Shown: one piece after another, positions 3,504 through 36,047 of the stretch
Numbering within the stretch: the stretch's first letter is position 1
Layout: every line of letters begins with the position of its first letter
Origin: Candidatus Omnitrophota bacterium
Lineage (GTDB): Bacteria > Omnitrophota > Gorgyraeia > 2-01-FULL-45-10
Assembly: GCA_018823705.1 (NCBI GenBank)
Contig: JAHJHP010000090.1
Span: 1-44,212, forward strand
Length of the DNA stretch: 44,212 nucleotides
Direction: 5' to 3'
Position numbers and translations under genes: made by a program
The notes under the pieces: model-generated
The model's database searches: none
The model's input: the letters and a program-made list of their open reading frames with translations, nothing else
What the model was told of the DNA's origin: nothing

Positions 3504-4860
3504 GCTTCTTCCTTCCTTTCGGCTCTGTCTTCAAAGCCTCTTTCTCAGCTTTAATCCTTTCGAGTAAAGCTTCTGCAGAATTCTCATTGGATATTAAATT
3601 TTTATGGTCGTTCCGCCACTGCTTTGTCAGCTTACCATCAAAGGCTTGCTTGAGAATGCTTTGGCGCAAGGCTTCGGCTTTTTGTAGGTTTTCACCAATA
3701 GAGTCTTCTATCTTATCGCATACCGAAAACCGTGATTCTATGCTTTGAATTATTTTTCGTTGTTCTTGTATTGAGGGTAAAGGCATTTCGGTAGACTGAA
3801 TTGCTTTCATCCCGACATTTCCCTGCCCAACATTACCTGTTTCTGAGGCGAAAAAACTGTCTTTAAATAATTGCGTCCATGAATAATAGAGAAAAAACTT
3901 AGGTAAGCATTTTTCATCAAATCTTAACCGCGCCAGTCTTTGATTTAACAACAGGTTTTCTTCCTTTACTATGGTTGTGTACCCGTAGTCTCTTTTCTTC
4001 CTTGTACCTGTTAACGAAATAACAACATCCCCGGGTTTTAATAAATATTTATCGATTATTTTTTGTTCAACTACGTCTAAAAAAACCGGTGATATATTTA
4101 ACCGCATAGTGCCAGGCCTTACATTTCCGATCCTAATAACTTGATAGATTCCACTCTCTTTAAAGTTAGCGCTTTTAAAGGCACATCCTCCAAAGGCTTC
4201 ACTAATACTTTGCATCGGAATTTTTTTCCATTTTCCCTCAAACGAATATTTCAACACTGCCTGCCGATAGGTTTTTAACTGCTCTTGAGTTTTTTTGAGG
4301 TTTTCAACGGCACTATCAAGATCGGAAAATATTTCTTCAATAATATTTACAATCTGTTTTTGCTCTTCACTCGAAGCAAGAGATATTTGTATTCCGTAAA
4401 CTTTCGATAACGGAATCGATGGCAATGTTGTTGCATGAGCAATACTATTAAAATCAATTATCTTAAGCCGGTAATATAGATACTCGCTTAAAACACCATT
4501 GAAGGGTATCGCCGTTGCTATGTGACTGACAACATACATATCCGATTTTAGAATACCGCGCTGATTCAATAAACTCGACGCGCCACTTTTAGTGAACAAA
4601 ACTGTACCCTTAGGGAAAAGTTGCATTTTTCCAATGGCATTCTGATTAATTCGGTCGGCTGTATTAATAATATGCTTATTTTCCCCCAATCGCCCCATAT
4701 CTTGAACGCGAACAAATGGATAAATACCATCCTTAAAAAATTGCTCGCCTTGCGGAGCGGGATTACCAGTTCCAATATCGGCAATATCTCCAAGCGATAT
4801 TTGTTCCCACTCCTCAGGTGATGTACGTCCGTTATGTAATGTATTGGCCATCTTGCTCAT
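3496..4860 (-). CDS. hsdS: Type I restriction-modification specificity subunit S
   Basis: This 454-residue protein is the DNA-recognition subunit that forms the complex with HsdM and HsdR. It shows the two-fold layout of the family: target recognition domain 1 (about 15-160), a conserved helical spacer (EEQKQIVNIIEEIFSDLDSA, then a coiled coil to about 210), target domain 2 (about 215-375), and a second helical spacer (QEQRKIIQSIESRF onward). Each spacer marks the end of one half-site reader, so a bipartite target is expected. Start and stop overlap neighbouring genes by 4 and 8 bases. The target domains are the least conserved parts and cannot be assigned a sequence. Confidence 0.95.
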   Translation of the reverse strand: MSKMANTLHNGRTSPEEWEQISLGDIADIGTGNPAPQGEQFFKDGIYPFVRVQDMGRLGENKHIINTADRINQNAIGKMQLFPKGTVLFTKSGASSLLNQRGILKSDMYVVSHIATAIPFNGVLSEYLYYRLKIIDFNSIAHATTLPSIPLSKVYGIQISLASSEEQKQIVNIIEEIFSDLDSAVENLKKTQEQLKTYRQAVLKYSFEGKWKKIPMQSISEAFGGCAFKSANFKESGIYQVIRIGNVRPGTMRLNISPVFLDVVEQKIIDKYLLKPGDVVISLTGTRKKRDYGYTTIVKEENLLLNQRLARLRFDEKCLPKFFLYYSWTQLFKDSFFASETGNVGQGNVGMKAIQSTEMPLPSIQEQRKIIQSIESRFSVCDKIEDSIGENLQKAEALRQSILKQAFDGKLTKQWRNDHKNLISNENSAEALLERIKAEKEALKTEPKGRKKHD

Positions 4861-7604
4861 GCCACCAAAACCTCATTCAGCTCATTAATAAGGTTGTCGG
4901 TCTGTTTACCAAAAAGCTCATGCAATTTACCTAGCCCACCTCGTTCGCCAAAAGGCGAGAGGGAAAAGTCGTCTTGTTCGATATGAAATGACGTTGCGAT
5001 ATGATCGCGAATCATATAGAGCCAATCCATCTGTTCCTGATTAAAATGGTTATGTCCTGATTGGGCCCGGACAACCCAATCACGAAAATTCCTGCGCGCT
5101 ATTGTGTCATAATCCGTAAGTTCTTTATCGATACTAACTATTCTACGAATTAGGCCCACGAGGGCCGTCAATTCGCTCTTTGGGCTTCCGACACTACTCT
5201 TCTCAAGATGCGCATAGGCCTCCCAAACGCGTAAAGGCGCCAAGCTCGGTTTTTTCTCTTTGATAAGCTCAATAACTTCCTTAATCATTCTATATGTTAT
5301 CTCACGCCTACGATACGGCTGGCTATAAAAGATAGAAAGCGCCTGAATTTCATCTTTATTCGCTTCAATAAATTCCTTAAAATCGTTAACTAATGCTTCT
5401 GCCTGCTTGCTGGCTTGTTTGTCCCATCCGGCAAAAGTTACACGGTCAATATTGACAGTATCTATGATCTGCTCTAGTGACTTGCGTACCACTTCTAAAT
5501 ACTCATTAAGGGGGCCGTTAAAGACATGACTCACTCGTTTTGCCAAATCTTCCTGCGCACGCTTTAATTTCTCATCTTGCGGAATTTCGGCCCCGAGGAA
5601 GAGTTCCTTTGCTTTTTCCTCGATACGATCCGGGTTTTGCGCATCAAGAAGGCCATTCACGATAGCGCCTAAAGGCATACCGCTGGAAAGCTCTTTAATC
5701 TTTTTGTGTTCCTTTTCCTTAATCTGACGGTTCATGCGTGTTAAGCGATTTGCCAACGACAGGAAAGTATCCTCATCACGAGCACCCATCATAATGGCAT
5801 TGAGTAAATCCTTTAACGGCACAGAACTTTTACGTTCCAGCGGACGACTGTCGGTTTTTAGTGACCTTGTAACACCCACAGCATCTACAATAACAAAATG
5901 GTCTTTCTCATATTTCGCTGAAGGCGTAACCTTTTTTAAATCATCGAGACCCAGCGTCCTTGTTCCGCGCCCTTTCATCTGCTCAAAGTAGTTGGTTGAG
6001 CGCACATCACGCATAAAAAGTAGACACTCCAACGGCTTGACATCAGTGCCGGTAGCAATCATATCTACGGTAACGGCAATTCGTGGATTATATGAGTTTC
6101 TGAATTGCGCGAGCAAGGTATCGCCATCCTCTTCGGCCTTATAGGTAATCTTTTTGCAAAAGTCATTCCCTTCGGCAAATTCTTCGCGCACTACGTCGAT
6201 AATGTCATCGGCATGGCTGTCAGTCTTGGCAAATATAAGGGTTTTCGGTACTTCTTTACGGCCCGGAAATATTTCAAGGAGCTTATTTTTAAACGCCTTT
6301 ATGACATTACGGATCTGACTTGGGTTAACCACATCCCGATCCAGCTGTTGCCCCTTATATTTGACCTCTTCATCCAATTGTTCCCACCGCTTCTTGCGGG
6401 TTAAACGTTCGCGCACATCCACATACTCTTTGGCTTGGATTTTGGCGCCTTGTCTCGTTACCTCTGTTTCGATGATAAAAACGTCATAAGGAACATTAAC
6501 AAGGTCCGCGACCGCTTGCTCGTGCGAATATTCGCTTACAATATTTTCTTTGAAAAATCCGAATGTCCGCTTGTCGGGTGTAGCTGTCAACCCGATCAGG
6601 AATGCATCAAAATAATCAAGCACCTGCTGCCAAAGGTTATATATGGAACGATGACATTCATCTATGACAATAAAGTCAAAGAAGTCGGGCGGAATTCTCT
6701 CGCTATAAACAACGGGCATGGGTGCTTTTGGCTGCCTTACTTCGTTTGGATTTATCTCTTCGGCTGATTCGTCGAGCTCTTCGCTTTTCAAAATAGAATA
6801 AAGGCGCTGGATAGTGCTGATACAGACTTGAGAGCTCTTGGAAATATAGCTTGAATTAAGGCGCTGAACATTATAAAGCTCGGTAAATTTGCGATTATCA
6901 TCCGCGGGTGTATAAGCCATAAACTCCTGCTCGGCCTGCCTGCCAAGGTTTCGCGTATCAACAAGGAAAAGCACGCGTTTGGCTTTGGCAAATTTAAGAA
7001 GACGATATATAGAAGTGACGGCGGTATATGTTTTACCGCTTCCTGTCGCCATCTGAATGAGTGCCCGGGGATAATTTTCCTTAAACGACTTTTCGAGATT
7101 CCTGATTGCCTTAATCTGGCAGTCGCGCAGGCCCTTTTCGTCTATACCAGGAATGTCATGCAGCCTTGCCCTCAAACTCTTTGGAGCGGATAGCCATTCT
7201 TTAAATGTTTCAGGCCTTTGGAAAGAAAATGTTTGACGGGCTCGAGGTTTTGGGTCATTAAAATCAGTAAATCGTGTTATCTCACCGGTGCTCTCGTAGA
7301 CATAGCTAAGTGGCGCGTTATTTACATATTTAAGCTGGGCCAAAGCATATGCCTCAGCCTGTGCTTCGTGAACGGTGAGTCGGTGGCCTTCTTCTTCTCG
7401 CTTGGCTTCTATAACACCTACCGGCTGGCGATCAACAAAAAGAATGTAATCAACTGGCCCGATATCGGTTGGATATTCTCGAACAGCGATACCAAGGCCA
7501 GCATTAAAGTTTAACTCCTTTCTGCCCTGTACTTTCCAGCCGGATTGTACAAGCAGGGTATCGATTTTGTCACGTGCTATTTGTTCGGGATTTTGATTTG
7601 GCAT
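4857..7604 (-). CDS. hsdR: Type I restriction enzyme subunit R (nuclease and translocase)
   Basis: This 915-residue protein cleaves and translocates unmodified DNA. The N-terminal nuclease has D52 and E66-x-K68 in the order of the PD-(D/E)xK fold (VDYILF... VIEAK). The SF2 motor follows, with Walker A ATGSGKT (186-192), DECH box (315-318) and the later motif QMKGRGTR near residue 540. The C-terminal 250 residues resemble the EcoEI-type HsdR C-terminal domain that binds the methylase core. The start lies 2 bases after the radC stop, and its TGA overlaps the hsdS ATG. All catalytic motifs are present, so the system looks active. Confidence 0.96.
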   Translation of the reverse strand: MPNQNPEQIARDKIDTLLVQSGWKVQGRKELNFNAGLGIAVREYPTDIGPVDYILFVDRQPVGVIEAKREEEGHRLTVHEAQAEAYALAQLKYVNNAPLSYVYESTGEITRFTDFNDPKPRARQTFSFQRPETFKEWLSAPKSLRARLHDIPGIDEKGLRDCQIKAIRNLEKSFKENYPRALIQMATGSGKTYTAVTSIYRLLKFAKAKRVLFLVDTRNLGRQAEQEFMAYTPADDNRKFTELYNVQRLNSSYISKSSQVCISTIQRLYSILKSEELDESAEEINPNEVRQPKAPMPVVYSERIPPDFFDFIVIDECHRSIYNLWQQVLDYFDAFLIGLTATPDKRTFGFFKENIVSEYSHEQAVADLVNVPYDVFIIETEVTRQGAKIQAKEYVDVRERLTRKKRWEQLDEEVKYKGQQLDRDVVNPSQIRNVIKAFKNKLLEIFPGRKEVPKTLIFAKTDSHADDIIDVVREEFAEGNDFCKKITYKAEEDGDTLLAQFRNSYNPRIAVTVDMIATGTDVKPLECLLFMRDVRSTNYFEQMKGRGTRTLGLDDLKKVTPSAKYEKDHFVIVDAVGVTRSLKTDSRPLERKSSVPLKDLLNAIMMGARDEDTFLSLANRLTRMNRQIKEKEHKKIKELSSGMPLGAIVNGLLDAQNPDRIEEKAKELFLGAEIPQDEKLKRAQEDLAKRVSHVFNGPLNEYLEVVRKSLEQIIDTVNIDRVTFAGWDKQASKQAEALVNDFKEFIEANKDEIQALSIFYSQPYRRREITYRMIKEVIELIKEKKPSLAPLRVWEAYAHLEKSSVGSPKSELTALVGLIRRIVSIDKELTDYDTIARRNFRDWVVRAQSGHNHFNQEQMDWLYMIRDHIATSFHIEQDDFSLSPFGERGGLGKLHELFGKQTDNLINELNEVLVA

Positions 7605-8859: not shown

Positions 8860-8863
<4 letters not shown>
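8615..8863 (+). pseudogene. Start-less remnant of a small ORF before the recombinase, carrying an in-frame repeat
   Basis: An open frame runs from just after a stop at 8612 to TGA 8861-8863 and overlaps the recombinase ATG. It has no usable start codon. Its C-terminal half (NPDIQKLLDVVSEIIANEY, then EIAKKNRDVF) looks like real protein. The middle (residues about 17-42, NEIASPPASLADRNDD) is simply the translated repeat at 8666-8740. I infer a small helical protein once coupled to the recombinase that lost its 5' end, perhaps by insertion of the repeat. It could still be translated from a non-standard start. Confidence 0.4.
8666..8740. repeat. Composite palindromic repeat (GCAATGAC type)
   Basis: Two adjoining palindromes are visible. 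The first has CCGCCAGC/GCTGGCGG arms (8678-8685 and 8689-8696, loop TTC) followed by ATCGCAATGAC. The second is ATTCCC...GGGAAT, followed by GAC. The interior GAGATTGCTTC and the end GCAATGAC match the interior and ends of the longer repeats at 17256, 31654 and 35947, so this is a related, partial copy. It is read in frame by the remnant ORF around it. Confidence 0.7.
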
Positions 8864-10605
<1,742 letters not shown>

Positions 10606-10755
10606 TTTCCTCTATCCGGACTTCAACGGGCGGAATTCACGGCAGAGTATCCTTTAAGAGCATCATCCAAATCGCTAAAGGCTAAGCGGTAAGGACTATC
10701 CTGTTATCGTCGCCAATCCGCGCTTCACAGGCACGTGCGCAGTTGACGGGTTAGC

Positions 10756-10851
10756 TTATAGGGCTAACGCGACCGGCTGAAAAGCGCTCGGTACCACTTG
10801 CATGGTAGCCAAGAGCTGATCAACCGTTGCTGGAACGTTTACGTTTTCAGC
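10756..10851 (-). other. tmRNA tag-peptide reading frame (31 residues)
   Basis: The frame starts with a GCT resume codon at 10851 and ends at TAA 10758-10756. The peptide begins AENVNVPATV and ends FQPVALAL. The A-E/A-N start and the small hydrophobic ending (cf. ALAA) are what proteases such as ClpXP recognise. It is about three times longer than the E. coli tag. The alternative frame beginning with GCA at the earlier GGCAAATC stops after eight codons and lacks the hydrophobic ending, so I prefer this one. Confidence 0.6.
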
Positions 10852-10959
10852 ATTTGTTGATTTGCCAGGTGTTTTAAGAGGCCTCCTAGCAACCTCTACA
10901 TGCAACCTTTACCTTGCTTATATGGGTCGAAGCCCTTCACCCCCTTTAACATGAGGCCA

Positions 10960-11835: not shown

Positions 11836-12069
11836 TTAATTGGTGACGGTGCCGGTATCCATCGTTTCTTCCATCTGGCCTATTTCTTGCTCTGATTGGT
11901 CCTGCTCGTCGCTAATCTCGGATTCGAGATTTTGATCGAGCTCGGATTCAGGCTGCTCAGTTTCACTCTCCGCTTCGGAATCGGATCCGTCTTCATTCTG
12001 ACAATAGCCGGAGATCTCCCAGCCCACAAGAAGTAGGCAGGCGATTATTACTATTACGACTTTTTTCAT
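11836..12069 (-). CDS. Small acidic secreted protein
   Basis: This is a 77-residue protein starting at ATG 12069, with a strong ribosome site (GGGAGGGG). A Sec-type signal peptide covers roughly residues 1-22 (MKKVVIVIIACLLLVGWEIS). The remainder is almost entirely Asp, Glu, Gln and Ser, with no hydrophobic core, so it is probably disordered in the periplasm or outside. No family is recognised. Its own -10 box suggests independent expression. It could bind cations or coat a surface, but that is a guess. Confidence 0.65.
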   Translation of the reverse strand: MKKVVIVIIACLLLVGWEISGYCQNEDGSDSEAESETEQPESELDQNLESEISDEQDQSEQEIGQMEETMDTGTVTN

Positions 12070-12143: not shown

Positions 12144-14033
12144 TTACTGGCTCAGCCTACCCGCTACGACTCTCTTCAGTTCTTCCATACCCCGGCCGCA
12201 AAGCGCCATAGCTCTTTCATAATACTCCCTGGCCGTTTCAGGATTCTTTAACCTCATATAAATATCACCAACACGGACATACGCGATGGCTATCGATTGG
12301 GCTGACCTGGTATTAGCCACGGCAGTCTCATAGATCCTGATGGCCTTCTCATGCTCTCCCATCTGGTCATACGTTGTCGCGAGGTTCATATAGCCGTCCA
12401 CAAACGACGGATCGACTTTTATCGCGCGCTCAAATTGCCGTATCGCCTCGGGATACCTTTTCGTCTCGGCGTACGCCACTCCCATGCTGCTCAAAGCCTC
12501 CAGATTGTCAGGCCTGATCTCGAGCGCCTTCGCCAGGACCGCGATAGCTTCATCGTAACGGCCAAGCCCGACATAACAGAACCCCAGAATATTTCTTGGG
12601 GCGAAATAGCCCTCCGATAAAACTATGGCCTTAAGAAGAGGCTTTATTGCCGCTTCATATTGCCCCCGGTCCGAATATGCCGCGCCAAGCGTCGCGAGGC
12701 CCCACGGGTTAAGCGGGTTTATCTTCAGTATTGAGTTCGTCACCGCGACCTGGCTCTTCCAGTCCTCATTCCTCATCATAGTCCTGACGGAATATACTAA
12801 TACCAGTATAGCGGCTATGGCTACGGCAAACCTTCCGGCTTTCGATCTATTGACGGCTCCCGCGCTGATCGCGTACTTTCCCAAAAGGATCGCAAGGAGC
12901 ATGCAGAACCCTATCGAGGGAAGATATAAGAATCTTTCCGCCATAATCGCCCTTAGAGGCACTATATTCGAAACGGGCAGAAGCGCCGCGAAGAAGAGGC
13001 ATATGGCAAAAGAAGTCCTGCGCGAACGCCTGAATATGAAGGGAAGCGCCGCTATCAGAGCTGCAATCGCCGCCGCCGACATAAGAACCCTTGGCTCGGC
13101 AATGGATGAGTAGACGGTCGTGACATAATAAGCGCTTAATTTTATCGGCAGCGCTAATATCTTGATATAATCGCACAGCGCGACCAGCATAGTAAGGAAT
13201 GTATCATAGGGGCCGCCTCCCCACCACGGGCACTGGCTGACTCTATTTATCACCAGAAATCTCACCGCAACGAAGAACGCGCTGAGTAAAAAATACGGCG
13301 CAAATTTCAACACTCTTCGCTTAATGCTCTCCCGCCCCGCGAAGTGAATATCATATAGGACCAATAACAACGGCAGACTGATCGCCATCTCTTTCGAAAA
13401 TAGCGAAGCTGTAAATAGCACCAGGGAAAAAGCGAGATATCTCTTCTTCCCGGCTTTCATGAATAACAGGTAGAGTATAAAGGCCCCAAGATAAAAGAAT
13501 AAGAATAGCACGCTGGAACGAGAGGATATCCAGGCGACCGCTTCCGTCTGTACCGGATGGCACGCGAAGAGGAGGCTGGCGAGAAACGCTATGGAGCCCA
13601 CCCGAAATTCTTTTCTTTCGTTGCGACATCCCGCCCCGCCTATCCCCGATCTGAAGGCCGGGGCGTTGGGCGGCGGGACAACGCTATTTCCGAAGATGAG
13701 CTGTAAGAGAATAAAGAGCAGCACAACGTTTAACGCGTGCAGGACGACATTCTCCAGGTGATACCCGAAAGTATTAAGGCCCCAGCGCCGGTAATCCAGC
13801 GCGAACGATATGGTAGTAAGAGGCCTGTAGACGTCCTGCGCGAGTTCCGCAAACGCCGCCGCCGACGGACTTGTAAAAAATGAAGGGATGTTTTCAAAGC
13901 TGCGTATATTGATATTCTTTACGATGAAGTAATCGTCATCGTATAAAAATTCTCCGCCCAACGAATTGGAATAAACTATGATCGTGAAGATGGAAAGCAG
14001 CAGGGCCGCTTTTACTTTATTATTCAGGCTCAT
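12144..14033 (-). CDS. TMTC-like multi-membrane-span TPR protein (probable GT-C transferase)
   Basis: This 629-residue protein begins with a membrane helix and then the acidic signature FLYDDDYFI (D32-D34), followed by YRPLTTISFALDYRRWGLNTFGYHLENVVLHALN. This is the first-loop pattern of TMTC-like, GT-C-fold glycosyltransferases. About ten hydrophobic segments extend to about residue 420. Roughly five TPR units (about 435-610; e.g. NLEALSSMGVAYAETKRYPE) follow, probably outside the membrane. Family members are thought to transfer sugars from a prenyl-phosphate donor to proteins, but many bacterial ones are uncharacterised. The start overlaps the YdjC-like gene by 14 bases, so it belongs to the same operon. 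Confidence 0.75.
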   Translation of the reverse strand: MSLNNKVKAALLLSIFTIIVYSNSLGGEFLYDDDYFIVKNINIRSFENIPSFFTSPSAAAFAELAQDVYRPLTTISFALDYRRWGLNTFGYHLENVVLHALNVVLLFILLQLIFGNSVVPPPNAPAFRSGIGGAGCRNERKEFRVGSIAFLASLLFACHPVQTEAVAWISSRSSVLFLFFYLGAFILYLLFMKAGKKRYLAFSLVLFTASLFSKEMAISLPLLLVLYDIHFAGRESIKRRVLKFAPYFLLSAFFVAVRFLVINRVSQCPWWGGGPYDTFLTMLVALCDYIKILALPIKLSAYYVTTVYSSIAEPRVLMSAAAIAALIAALPFIFRRSRRTSFAICLFFAALLPVSNIVPLRAIMAERFLYLPSIGFCMLLAILLGKYAISAGAVNRSKAGRFAVAIAAILVLVYSVRTMMRNEDWKSQVAVTNSILKINPLNPWGLATLGAAYSDRGQYEAAIKPLLKAIVLSEGYFAPRNILGFCYVGLGRYDEAIAVLAKALEIRPDNLEALSSMGVAYAETKRYPEAIRQFERAIKVDPSFVDGYMNLATTYDQMGEHEKAIRIYETAVANTRSAQSIAIAYVRVGDIYMRLKNPETAREYYERAMALCGRGMEELKRVVAGRLSQ

Positions 14034-14877
14034 TTTTTGAAAGGAATTCCCCGTAGCTTACGAGGCTTATCTCTTTTTCATCTGCCGATTTTTTCACACG
14101 GCGACTCGTCAACGCAAAGAGTTCCGCCTCGGAATTTTTGTGAAATGTATATCTATTCAGGACTTCCGGCCCCAGAAAACCGGGATGGCACACAAGCTCC
14201 GTTGTCCCGTCTTTCAGGTTGGCCAGCATATCGAGCAGTATGTCTTCGGTGATATTGCCGGAGTCGAGGAATCCCAGGAAATGCTCCGGCGCTCTCATCC
14301 CGGATAACTTTATAGCTCGCGCCATGTTGCCCGCAAAAATTGATAGCGCCATCTCCTTGCAGACGGTTCTTACGCTACAGCGGGATCTCGAGCTCTCAGC
14401 GTGCGGATATCTGAGGGCGGGAATATTGTATTCTTTAGCGAGCGAGATAAGGATATCCAGTAATTTCGGCAGCATATGTATATGTTCGTGGCTCGACAGG
14501 TTAGTTATATTGATGCCCGTTTCATGCGCCCTTTTCAGCTGGGCTTTCCATTCGATATATACTTCGTCGAGACTGATCGCTCCGGATATGTACTTGAGCA
14601 GGAATTCGGCGTGTCCTCTGTAAAACCTGCCATCAGCATCGACAAGGGACGGTATCGCGGAAGGTTCCGTAAGGGCTTCTGTTTCAGTCAACGCAAGATG
14701 CGCGCCGGCTTCACCCAGGCCGATCTTTTTGGAAAGCAATATAGCATCGTCAAACGCTTCACCGCTCGGCAGGAGGTTTAGTGACGTGACGATCCCCTCT
14801 GCATAAGAGCGCGCTATGCCTTCATTCACGCTCTTCGTCAGTCCGAAATCATCAGCCGCCACTATCAGTTGTTTCAT
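14020..14877 (-). CDS. YdjC/ChbG/HpnK-family carbohydrate deacetylase (NaxD-like)
   Basis: This 285-residue protein belongs to the YdjC family of metal-dependent deacetylases. Visible motifs are the N-terminal VAADDFGLT (D9-D10), H60 in GAHLALTE, and SSHEHIHMLP (H130, H132, H134). Family members remove acetyl groups from chitobiose (ChbG), hopanoid precursors (HpnK) or undecaprenyl-phosphate GalNAc (NaxD). The gene starts 1 base after the GT2 gene and is followed by the TPR transferase. This placement between a prenyl-phosphate glycosyltransferase and an ArnT-like enzyme favours a NaxD-type role, though the substrate is not proven. Confidence 0.8.
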   Translation of the reverse strand: MKQLIVAADDFGLTKSVNEGIARSYAEGIVTSLNLLPSGEAFDDAILLSKKIGLGEAGAHLALTETEALTEPSAIPSLVDADGRFYRGHAEFLLKYISGAISLDEVYIEWKAQLKRAHETGINITNLSSHEHIHMLPKLLDILISLAKEYNIPALRYPHAESSRSRCSVRTVCKEMALSIFAGNMARAIKLSGMRAPEHFLGFLDSGNITEDILLDMLANLKDGTTELVCHPGFLGPEVLNRYTFHKNSEAELFALTSRRVKKSADEKEISLVSYGEFLSKNEPE

Positions 14878-14878
14878 A

Positions 14879-15580
14879 TTACTGTCCTTTTCGTCCTAAT
14901 CTGTAACTAAACATGTCGAAGAATGTGCGCGCCACAACGCTCATGCGCGATATGGTGGACGAGCCTTTTGTGCGATGCTCAAAGATCAGGCCGTACTGTT
15001 TTATCCTGAATCCGCGTCTCACGGCTTCGGCGAATATTTCAACGTCGATGAACGGGCTTCTCGATTTCAAAGCGAGCCCGTTCAGGACCTCGCGCTTGTA
15101 TATCTTCAGCCCTGAATTGATATCCTTAAGATGCAAATTGAACAATGACTGGACCAGAAGATTATATACCTTTGACATCAATATACGCCTAAGCTTCGAG
15201 TCTTTTATGACCAGAGAATATGCCGTAATGATATCGGCTTCGTCAAGAAACTCCATCGCCTTCTTTATATCCTGCTCTTTGGCGGGAAAGTCCGAGTCCG
15301 TATATATTACCACGTCTTTCGTGGCAGCCATCAGGCCGGTATTCAGCGCGCCGCCGAATTTTGAATTAACTTTAAGGTGTACAGACTTAATGTGCTGATC
15401 CTTGAGAGCCATCAAGTCCACGAGACGTCCGCTCCCGTCTGTAGACGCGTCATCCGCGACCACGATCTCATAATCGCTTGATATCTGCACGGCCAATTCT
15501 GTGGCCCGGCGTATCGTCTCGGCGATATTGTCGGCCTCATTGAACATGGGAAATACAAATGAGACACTTTTAAGCGTCAT
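14879..15580 (-). CDS. GT2 family prenyl-phosphate glycosyltransferase (ArnC/DPM-like)
   Basis: This 233-residue protein has a GT-A fold. FPMFNEADNI opens the nucleotide site, VADDASTDGS (41-50) binds the nucleotide, and YTDSD (93-97) supplies the DxD metal motif. It resembles dolichyl-phosphate mannose synthases and ArnC/FlmF, which load a sugar onto a lipid phosphate. No C-terminal membrane helices are present, unlike ArnC, so it is the short soluble type. It overlaps the ArnT-like gene by one base at 15580 and leads directly into the deacetylase gene. Confidence 0.87.
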   Translation of the reverse strand: MTLKSVSFVFPMFNEADNIAETIRRATELAVQISSDYEIVVADDASTDGSGRLVDLMALKDQHIKSVHLKVNSKFGGALNTGLMAATKDVVIYTDSDFPAKEQDIKKAMEFLDEADIITAYSLVIKDSKLRRILMSKVYNLLVQSLFNLHLKDINSGLKIYKREVLNGLALKSRSPFIDVEIFAEAVRRGFRIKQYGLIFEHRTKGSSTISRMSVVARTFFDMFSYRLGRKGQ

Positions 15581-17244
15581 TACGAGCCCTCTCGCTTCAC
15601 CAGGAAATGTCCGTCAGCAGGGGCCTCGTTGGTTATTATAGCGCGTTTTCCCGTCACGGATAGCATATACGATGGCTTAACATATGTCTTTGTGATCTCC
15701 GGATCATATAGATGTTTATGGTTCTTCTCTTTCATCACCGCCCATATCCTCTTTTCGGAATTCATGAAATTGATCTGTATGTGGTGCTTGTCCAGATCGA
15801 CCGGAAACTTTCCGGTATAGAAAGCCAGCCCGGGGAGATAATTGCTCGCTGAGCCCAGCTCCTCGCCCGGGTTCATGACGGACGATAGCTTCGTGGCCAC
15901 TTCTTTACTCGTCTCATAACGCTCTATGTCGGGCAGGATCAACACGCTAAACGGACACAGGAATATCGCGATCGACAAAGCTATCAGCGAGAACGCCCAT
16001 CCGAAATTCTTGCGTACGAATGCCATAAGCGAAAATAGGCCTCCGAATGCCAGAAATAGGCCGGATATTATTGCGCCCGGCAGGATCGATGGAAAGTCGA
16101 TCTTTGCGTAAATCGCCGCGCCCACCCATCCCAGGATCATTATGGCCGATAGCAGATAATAAGAAACCTTTGTGACCCCGGTAATTGATTTTGAAGTCCT
16201 GCCTTTCAGGAAATCATCCAGTAGCGCGCCTACGATGACCGCCAGAGAGATAAATAACGGAAAGATGTACGTCGGAAGCTTGGTGCTGGAGACGGTAAAG
16301 AATCCGAATATGACAATGAGCCAGATGAGGACGAATATCGAGCCCTTCTTACTATTATCTACTCCTGTCTCCTGTCCCCTGGCTTTCCTGAACATATGCC
16401 ATATCCCGACCGGCAGAAATATGCTCCACGGAAAGAAACCGCCGAATATAATAGGAATATTATAGTAAACTTGAGAACCAATTTTATGTTCGGAAACTAG
16501 AAACCGCGTGACGTTATGCAATCCGAAGAAACCGTCCATAAATGCCTGGCCGTGGAGCTTATATATCGCAATATACCATGGCGCGCTTAAGGCGATAAAG
16601 ACGATGGCCGCCTGCAATAAAGGCATTCTCCTGAGCGCCTTCAGATCTTTCACGAATAACAGGAACGCGAAGATCGCGATGATAAACAGGACCAAATATA
16701 CGGGCCCCTTCGTGAGAGCCGCAAGAGCTATAGATGCCGACGATAACAGGTAAAAATAATTCGTCTTTTTAATATAGCCGCATATAAAAAATAGTGTCGC
16801 CAGCAGCAAAAATACGAATAGCGCCATATCAGTAATGCACGCTCTCGATAATATTATATATTCGACGTTAGTGGCAAGTATAAGAGCTGAAAGGAATCCC
16901 GCGCGGCGGGTAAAAAGGATACTGCCCAAAAAAAAGATGGCGATGACACCGGCCGTTCCTAATACAGCCGAAGGCAGCCGCGCGGCGAACTCATTCACCC
17001 CAAACGCCTTGAAAGAGGCCTCGACCAGCCAATAGAAGAGTATCGGCTTCTCGAATTGCGGTTTCCCGTAAAGATACGGGGTCACCCATTCATCCTTAGC
17101 CAGCATCTCTCTGGCAGTCTCGGCGTAAAACGTCTCATCCGGATCTGTCAGCGCAAGCTTCCCCAGCTGAAGAAAGAAGAGGTAGTTGCAGATAAGGATA
17201 AGTACCGATAGGGCTATCAGTGTCTTTTTATAAATTCTGTCCAT
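15580..17244 (-). CDS. ArnT/FlmK-like lipid A glycosyltransferase (PMT_2, GT83-like)
   Basis: This 554-residue polytopic membrane protein has an ArnT signature in the first periplasmic loop: LTDPDETFYAETAREMLAK and DEWVTPYLYG, with catalytic-type D34/D36-E37, then FEKPILFYWL. About 12 hydrophobic segments follow, with a soluble C-terminal domain from about 450. ArnT and its relatives move a sugar from an undecaprenyl phosphate to lipid A or other acceptors at the periplasmic face. It is the first gene of a four-gene cassette. A palindromic repeat separates it from the upstream UROD-like gene. Confidence 0.88.
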   Translation of the reverse strand: MDRIYKKTLIALSVLILICNYLFFLQLGKLALTDPDETFYAETAREMLAKDEWVTPYLYGKPQFEKPILFYWLVEASFKAFGVNEFAARLPSAVLGTAGVIAIFFLGSILFTRRAGFLSALILATNVEYIILSRACITDMALFVFLLLATLFFICGYIKKTNYFYLLSSASIALAALTKGPVYLVLFIIAIFAFLLFVKDLKALRRMPLLQAAIVFIALSAPWYIAIYKLHGQAFMDGFFGLHNVTRFLVSEHKIGSQVYYNIPIIFGGFFPWSIFLPVGIWHMFRKARGQETGVDNSKKGSIFVLIWLIVIFGFFTVSSTKLPTYIFPLFISLAVIVGALLDDFLKGRTSKSITGVTKVSYYLLSAIMILGWVGAAIYAKIDFPSILPGAIISGLFLAFGGLFSLMAFVRKNFGWAFSLIALSIAIFLCPFSVLILPDIERYETSKEVATKLSSVMNPGEELGSASNYLPGLAFYTGKFPVDLDKHHIQINFMNSEKRIWAVMKEKNHKHLYDPEITKTYVKPSYMLSVTGKRAIITNEAPADGHFLVKREGS

Positions 17245-17255
17245 GATCTTTCCTT

Positions 17256-17440
17256 GTCATTGCGAGACGCCGAAGGCGGCGAAGCCTGCCTGCTTGCTGC
17301 CTACCTACCGGCAGGCAGGCAGGCAATCTTCATCTCACCGTCATTTCAATCTCGCTAGATTGCTTCAGCGCTTTGGCGCTTCGCAACCTTCGGGATTGCC
17401 ACGTCAGAAAATAGTCCGGCAACATCTTCCTCGCAATGAC
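17256..17440. repeat. MITE-like palindromic repeat, copy A (long)
   Basis: This 185-bp element has terminal inverted repeats GTCATTGCGAG (17256-17266) and CTCGCAATGAC (17430-17440). The interior holds smaller palindromes and a GGCAGGCAGGCAGGCAAT run. It fills almost the whole gap between the UROD-like gene (ends 17444) and the ArnT-like start (17244). There is no coding capacity. The ends match copies B and C. Confidence 0.85.
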
Positions 17441-17443
17441 AGT

Positions 17444-35946: not shown

Positions 35947-36047
35947 GTCATTGCGAGGAAGATATTGTTTAACTATTTTCTGACGCGGCAATCCCTTTTA
36001 AGATTGCTTCGTCGGAAAGGGTCTATAAACATCCTCCTCGCAATGAC
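35947..36047. repeat. MITE-like palindromic repeat, copy C
   Basis: This 101-bp element with ends GTCATTGCGAGGA and TCCTCGCAATGAC lies between the stand-alone binding-module gene and the GH144 gene. The interior holds AAGATTGCTTCGTCGGAAAG, matching the GATTGCTTCGTC interior of copy B. Like the other copies it sits at a gene boundary and has no coding sequence. Confidence 0.87.

Follow-up and report, generated by a model that had tools for sequence, protein, structure and literature searches.

A conserved ArnT–GT2–YdjC cassette, predicted to supply lipid A with an aminosugar, and its optional TMTC-like fourth gene in Omnitrophota

A family of uncultured environmental Omnitrophota carries, in fixed order, genes for an ArnT-like glycosyltransferase, a GT2 enzyme and a YdjC-type deacetylase. 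By analogy with known systems, this three-gene core probably makes and uses a lipid-linked aminosugar, which would be passed to a phosphate of lipid A. A TMTC-like gene genuinely belongs to the cassette as a fourth member that is conserved yet optional. The case described here comes from the window, by which we mean the whole stretch of 44 212 nucleotides that was analysed; it corresponds to contig C90 in the 1.70-Mb genome, 99% complete, of an Omnitrophota bacterium.

The four genes are co-directional on the minus strand, and their open reading frames agree exactly with the span of 12144-17244 given in a preliminary description of this DNA. The first gene (15580-17244) encodes an ArnT-like GT-C protein of 554 amino acids, a GT83-type candidate aminosugar transferase. 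It is followed by a predicted GT2 polyprenyl-phosphate hexosamine synthase (14879-15580), which at 233 amino acids is short and lacks the C-terminal membrane part of the ArnC type, and by a 285-residue deacetylase of the YdjC family (ChbG/HpnK/NaxD superfamily; 14020-14877). The last gene (12144-14033) encodes the TMTC-like protein of 629 amino acids, with an N-terminal GT-C membrane domain (approximately residues 1-425) and C-terminal TPRs. The same description called the genes overlapping, which holds for two of the three junctions (1 nt between ArnT and GT2, 14 nt between YdjC and TMTC) but not for GT2 and YdjC, which are 1 nt apart. Packing is comparably tight in relatives. Upstream, a gap of 199 nt separates the cassette from another gene; downstream lie a small ORF, a tRNA-Leu gene and smpB. 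The small ORF (∼ 11836-12069), which would encode an acidic secreted protein, is without relatives among the other genomes compared. The upstream gap (17245-17443) contains repeat-like sequence, a 49-base copy of which (88%) is present at 35947-35995.

Two other regions of the window deserve mention. A large serine recombinase gene (8860-10944) overlaps at its 3′ end a predicted tmRNA gene (10528-10944) with a long tag of 31 amino acids; this suggests an element that has integrated at ssrA, with an HsdR-like gene of type I restriction (4857-7604) beyond it. Between 23369 and 35873, genes for a GH94-domain protein of 2049 amino acids and for two glucoamylase-like proteins adjoin sugar ABC transporter genes, an arrangement that resembles a cyclic glucan synthase region.

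The core is almost universal in the GTDB family to which the host belongs. A family-wide search found the YdjC gene in 25 of 26 genomes, and the order ArnT–GT2–YdjC was present in 21 of the 21 genomes with contigs covering the place; in the remaining genomes contig ends cut the cassette place, and these were left out of the count. Beyond the family, the class has at least 15 more genomes with this order. Conservation on this scale rules out a chance neighbourhood, and the unlinking of the genes in relatives, which the preliminary description had named as an outcome that would speak against a cassette, did not occur for the core. Considered by itself, the deacetylase has a scattered distribution across the phylum (81 of 285 genomes). 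Negativicutes and other Bacillota also have YdjC near an ArnT-like gene (17 loci), in one instance (L087) with a sugar-epimerase-like gene in between.

Each of the core proteins is recognizable by family and catalytic residues. The ArnT-like protein matches Pfam PMT_2 (8e-19) and PMT (2e-18), and its best NCBIfam model is ArnT, at 163 bits and below the curated cut-off. The sole solved relative returned by sequence search was CmArnT (5ezm; 1.6e-34 over 353 residues). In an alignment read by eye, with the chain numbering offset by 3, residues D36, Y40, E65, K66, D139, K179 and Y326 correspond to CmArnT D55, Y59, E84, K85, D158, K203 and Y345, and all seven are invariant in 16 relatives. The host genome holds no second match to this protein. 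The GT2 protein (Pfam Glycos_transf_2, 5e-25) appears from its sequence to be of the ArnC type: ArnC is its best NCBIfam model (76 bits, below the curated cut-off, with PpgS at 37 bits), and it matches ArnC structures (9hwj and others) at 3e-18, although those chains have 322-363 residues. D43, D44 and the D95xD97 motif are invariant in 16 relatives.

The deacetylase matches Pfam YdjC (1.3e-60, 206 bits), and the metal residues of the superfamily, D9, D10, H60, H130, H132 and H134, are invariant in 15 relatives. HpnK is its best NCBIfam model, which could mean that the enzyme is HpnK-like and that the cassette serves the glycosylation of hopanoids or another polycyclic lipid. However, the score of 182.9 bits falls under the HpnK cut-off of 232.6, squalene-hopene cyclase was found in none of 25 family genomes, and HpnK genes on annotated plasmids have hpnI/hpnJ as neighbours. 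We built a tree anchored by HpnK (Mycetohabitans, Caballeronia), ChbG (E. coli, Rahnella) and others. All sampled cassette-linked Omnitrophota deacetylases formed one clade (100/99) that included neither HpnK nor ChbG, and a topology forcing the family together with HpnK was rejected (AU p 0.008). The hopanoid reading was discarded on model score, absence of the cyclase and tree, and is highly improbable. An action on soluble chito-oligosaccharides, like that of ChbG, with an incidental link to the glycosyltransferases, would be in keeping with the common superfamily and with a ChbG model score of 149 bits. Yet that score is also below its cut-off (227), ChbG lies far outside the cassette clade, and the linkage is kept across a class; this reading was rejected on score and tree position, and we give it next to no weight. 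The preliminary description had proposed a phylogeny against HpnK and ChbG and had regarded a grouping with HpnK in a hopanoid operon as fatal to its view; the cassette clade stands apart from both.

Read as a system of the FlmK–FlmF2–NaxD or Lgm type, providing lipid-linked hexosamine for lipid A, the core is well supported by analogy. The likeness to the Francisella genes, on which the preliminary description was built, came through the comparison of synteny and of the deacetylase with HpnK and ChbG and stands as an analogy of family and gene set. With gene content, order, conservation, catalytic residues and lipid A genes observed, we infer the chemical steps, the sugar, its flipping and, here as for the TMTC-like protein, the acceptor. 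In the cytoplasm, the GT2 enzyme would use UDP-GalNAc or UDP-GlcNAc to load the N-acetylhexosamine onto undecaprenyl phosphate, and the YdjC protein would strip the acetyl group to leave a positively charged hexosamine. Some flippase would bring the lipid-linked hexosamine to the periplasmic side, where the ArnT-like GT-C would transfer it to a lipid A phosphate. The cassette itself encodes no flippase, and GtrA was not found in the host genome. The host has both LpxC and LpxK, which were found in 21 and 23 of 25 family genomes, respectively; a phosphorylated lipid A acceptor is therefore predicted. The ArnT-like protein might instead decorate another envelope glycan or a protein, the cassette then providing aminosugar for the envelope in general. 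Such GT-C proteins are known to use a wide range of acceptors, the lpx genes are located elsewhere and are not linked to the cassette, and one close relative (G007, locus L030; 99% complete) gave no match to LpxC, though it has both the cassette and LpxK. Against this, the nearest solved protein is a lipid A transferase whose active site is conserved here, and nearly all family genomes have LpxC and LpxK; we consider a different acceptor rather unlikely and prefer lipid A.

The fourth protein matches only TPR families in Pfam, but it has the TMTC architecture, a GT-C membrane domain followed by TPRs. Published TMTC motifs are DD, YRP, KE, ERxxY and a DW in EL4 (PMC7801869). Of these, DD (residues 32-33), YRP (69-71), KE (214-215) and ERxxY (366-370) are conserved, together with HPVxTE (159-164), and the four are kept in nine cassette members and in nearly all of 41 relatives. 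The cassette proteins lack DW at the published position and have an invariant W270 W271 in what seems to be the corresponding loop. An AlphaFold2 model from a 41-sequence alignment reached a pLDDT of 92.6 for the GT-C domain; with nine sequences the membrane domain was poor (mean pLDDT 66) and gave TPR matches only. In structural alignment the better model scored highest against the STT3 subunit of OST (Z 21.2), followed by PMT (19.6) and ArnT (18.2). All of these are GT-C enzymes, and the ranking of the modelled fold leans towards protein glycosyltransferases (STT3, PMT), which only hints at the acceptor. In the host gene, some 29 GC-rich codons (13595-13710) are inserted in frame and are absent from the other cassette TMTCs; model confidence is low there, and no copy was found elsewhere in the sequence examined.

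The gene is linked to the cassette but dispensable. It lies directly after YdjC in 12 of 23 readable family genomes, whereas in the other 11 smpB is close by and TMTC is absent at that place, which argues that the core does not need it. The four-gene synteny that the preliminary description proposed as a check is thus complete for the core and partial for the TMTC-like gene; the latter's place in the operon, also proposed there, is borne out in that the protein is a genuine TMTC-type GT-C linked to the cassette, with the reservation that it is optional and of a common kind. On the core tree, TMTC presence changes about five times, a rough count because the backbone of the trio tree is poorly resolved. 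Genomes with TMTC fall on either side of the family's deepest split, which suggests an old cassette member that was lost several times. Omnitrophota often carry TMTC-like genes (in 137 of 197 genomes of the class), so that a single linkage would mean little and the argument rests on a place kept across a clade. One TMTC search used the C-terminal two thirds of the protein as query and was swamped by TPR matches, and only strong matches were counted. Within the family, a second TMTC group lies beside leuS (L229, L230, L231, L233 and L238); in several of these loci small ComEA-like and large ComEC-like genes, recognized by eye, come next, possibly placing this group near competence genes.

Phylogeny connects the cassette TMTCs to pilus genes. 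They form one clade (100/100), which includes one unlinked protein of family f45, and their sister group consists of TMTCs from families f37 and f45. In five genomes of these two other families, the sister gene comes immediately after a type IV pilin gene, and longer contigs show the order PilB–PilC–pilin–TMTC–PilM–PilN–PilO, the pilus names having been assigned by eye from sequence and order. The window's family has a pilus cluster in the same order with no TMTC between pilin and PilM, so the cassette TMTC is tied to pili by kinship only. Related arrangements occur in other phyla. TMTC, pilin and YdjC genes are side by side at an Acidobacteria locus (L139). A Syntrophaceae MAG (L066) has another GT-C, a GT2–YdjC pair of the cassette type and, following this pair, a TMTC of a different lineage; because its deacetylase groups within the window's family, transfer or mis-binning is likely. 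At two Acidobacteria gp2 loci, L107 and L139, some 330 bases separate YdjC from a type IV pilin gene.

We tentatively suggest that the TMTC-like GT-C is a second periplasmic transferase, which would take the lipid-linked monosaccharide of the core, or one much like it, and pass it to another acceptor; the likeliest candidate is a secreted or pilus protein, which the TPRs would hold. Because the nearest TMTC relatives adjoin type IV pilin genes, a protein acceptor comes into view, and sequence and model together make protein (pilus) glycosylation plausible. A real possibility, though short of probable, is that the core acts on lipid A while the TMTC-like protein uses a different donor, such as a lipid-linked hexose from another GT2, and is merely co-transcribed or co-regulated. 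TMTC-like genes do occur in many contexts without YdjC; in f37 the pilus-linked TMTC has a GT2 neighbour of its own (L214, L215), with the trio elsewhere (L220); and the gene was gained or lost some five times while the core stayed. These points are set against the single clade of cassette TMTCs, kept directly after YdjC with junctions that overlap or span a few bases, and against L066 as a second GT2–YdjC–TMTC arrangement with a TMTC from another lineage. If the TMTC-like protein does share the donor of the core, one aminosugar pool would have two outputs, lipid A through ArnT and periplasmic or pilus proteins through TMTC, and bacterial TMTC-type O-glycosylation with an aminosugar would exist; this proposal is about as tentative. 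In the literature consulted we found no function for bacterial TMTC homologues and no paper on such homologues beside pilin genes. The cassette TMTC offers a concrete, testable hypothesis for their role.

Cassettes for lipid A hexosamine are familiar from pathogens and influence their resistance to antimicrobial peptides. In this family of uncultured environmental bacteria the core is near-universal and would be basic envelope chemistry. Francisella carries flmF2 and flmK next to each other, as FTN0545 and FTN0546 (PMC4688374); Und-P-GalN for lipid A is made with FlmF2 and FlmK (PMC4688374, PMC11279074), and NaxD deacetylates Und-P-GalNAc ahead of transfer to lipid A (PMC11279074). The Omnitrophota cassette has, by predicted activity, the same three components, an ArnT-type transferase, a GT2 prenyl-phosphate sugar synthase and a YdjC deacetylase. 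It differs in belonging to another phylum, in its fixed gene order, in the short GT2 and in the TMTC-like gene that often follows. In Bordetella, lgmA-D are required for the addition of GlcN to lipid A phosphates (PMC11895810), LgmB being an inner-membrane transferase (PMC11895810, PMC11401268). Likened by description, this too is a multi-gene locus for hexosamine on lipid A phosphates. We know of no TMTC-like gene in lgmA-D.

Human TMTC1-4 carry out O-mannosylation of cadherins. The cassette protein resembles them in its GT-C domain with DD, YRP, KE and ERxxY followed by TPRs; it is bacterial, however, it has an invariant WW near the place of the EL4 DW, and its donor is probably an Und-P-linked aminosugar rather than Dol-P-mannose. 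Pseudomonas TfpW, a GT-C encoded in association with the pilin gene, glycosylates type IV pilin with d-arabinofuranose (PMC11841053). By description it parallels the pilus-linked relatives of the cassette TMTC; in the window's family, unlike TfpW, the TMTC gene lies outside the pilus cluster. Judged by gene content, the core joins the Francisella and Bordetella systems as a new member of their kind, with chemistry that is expected and a phylum that is not; the novel part is the addition of TMTC.
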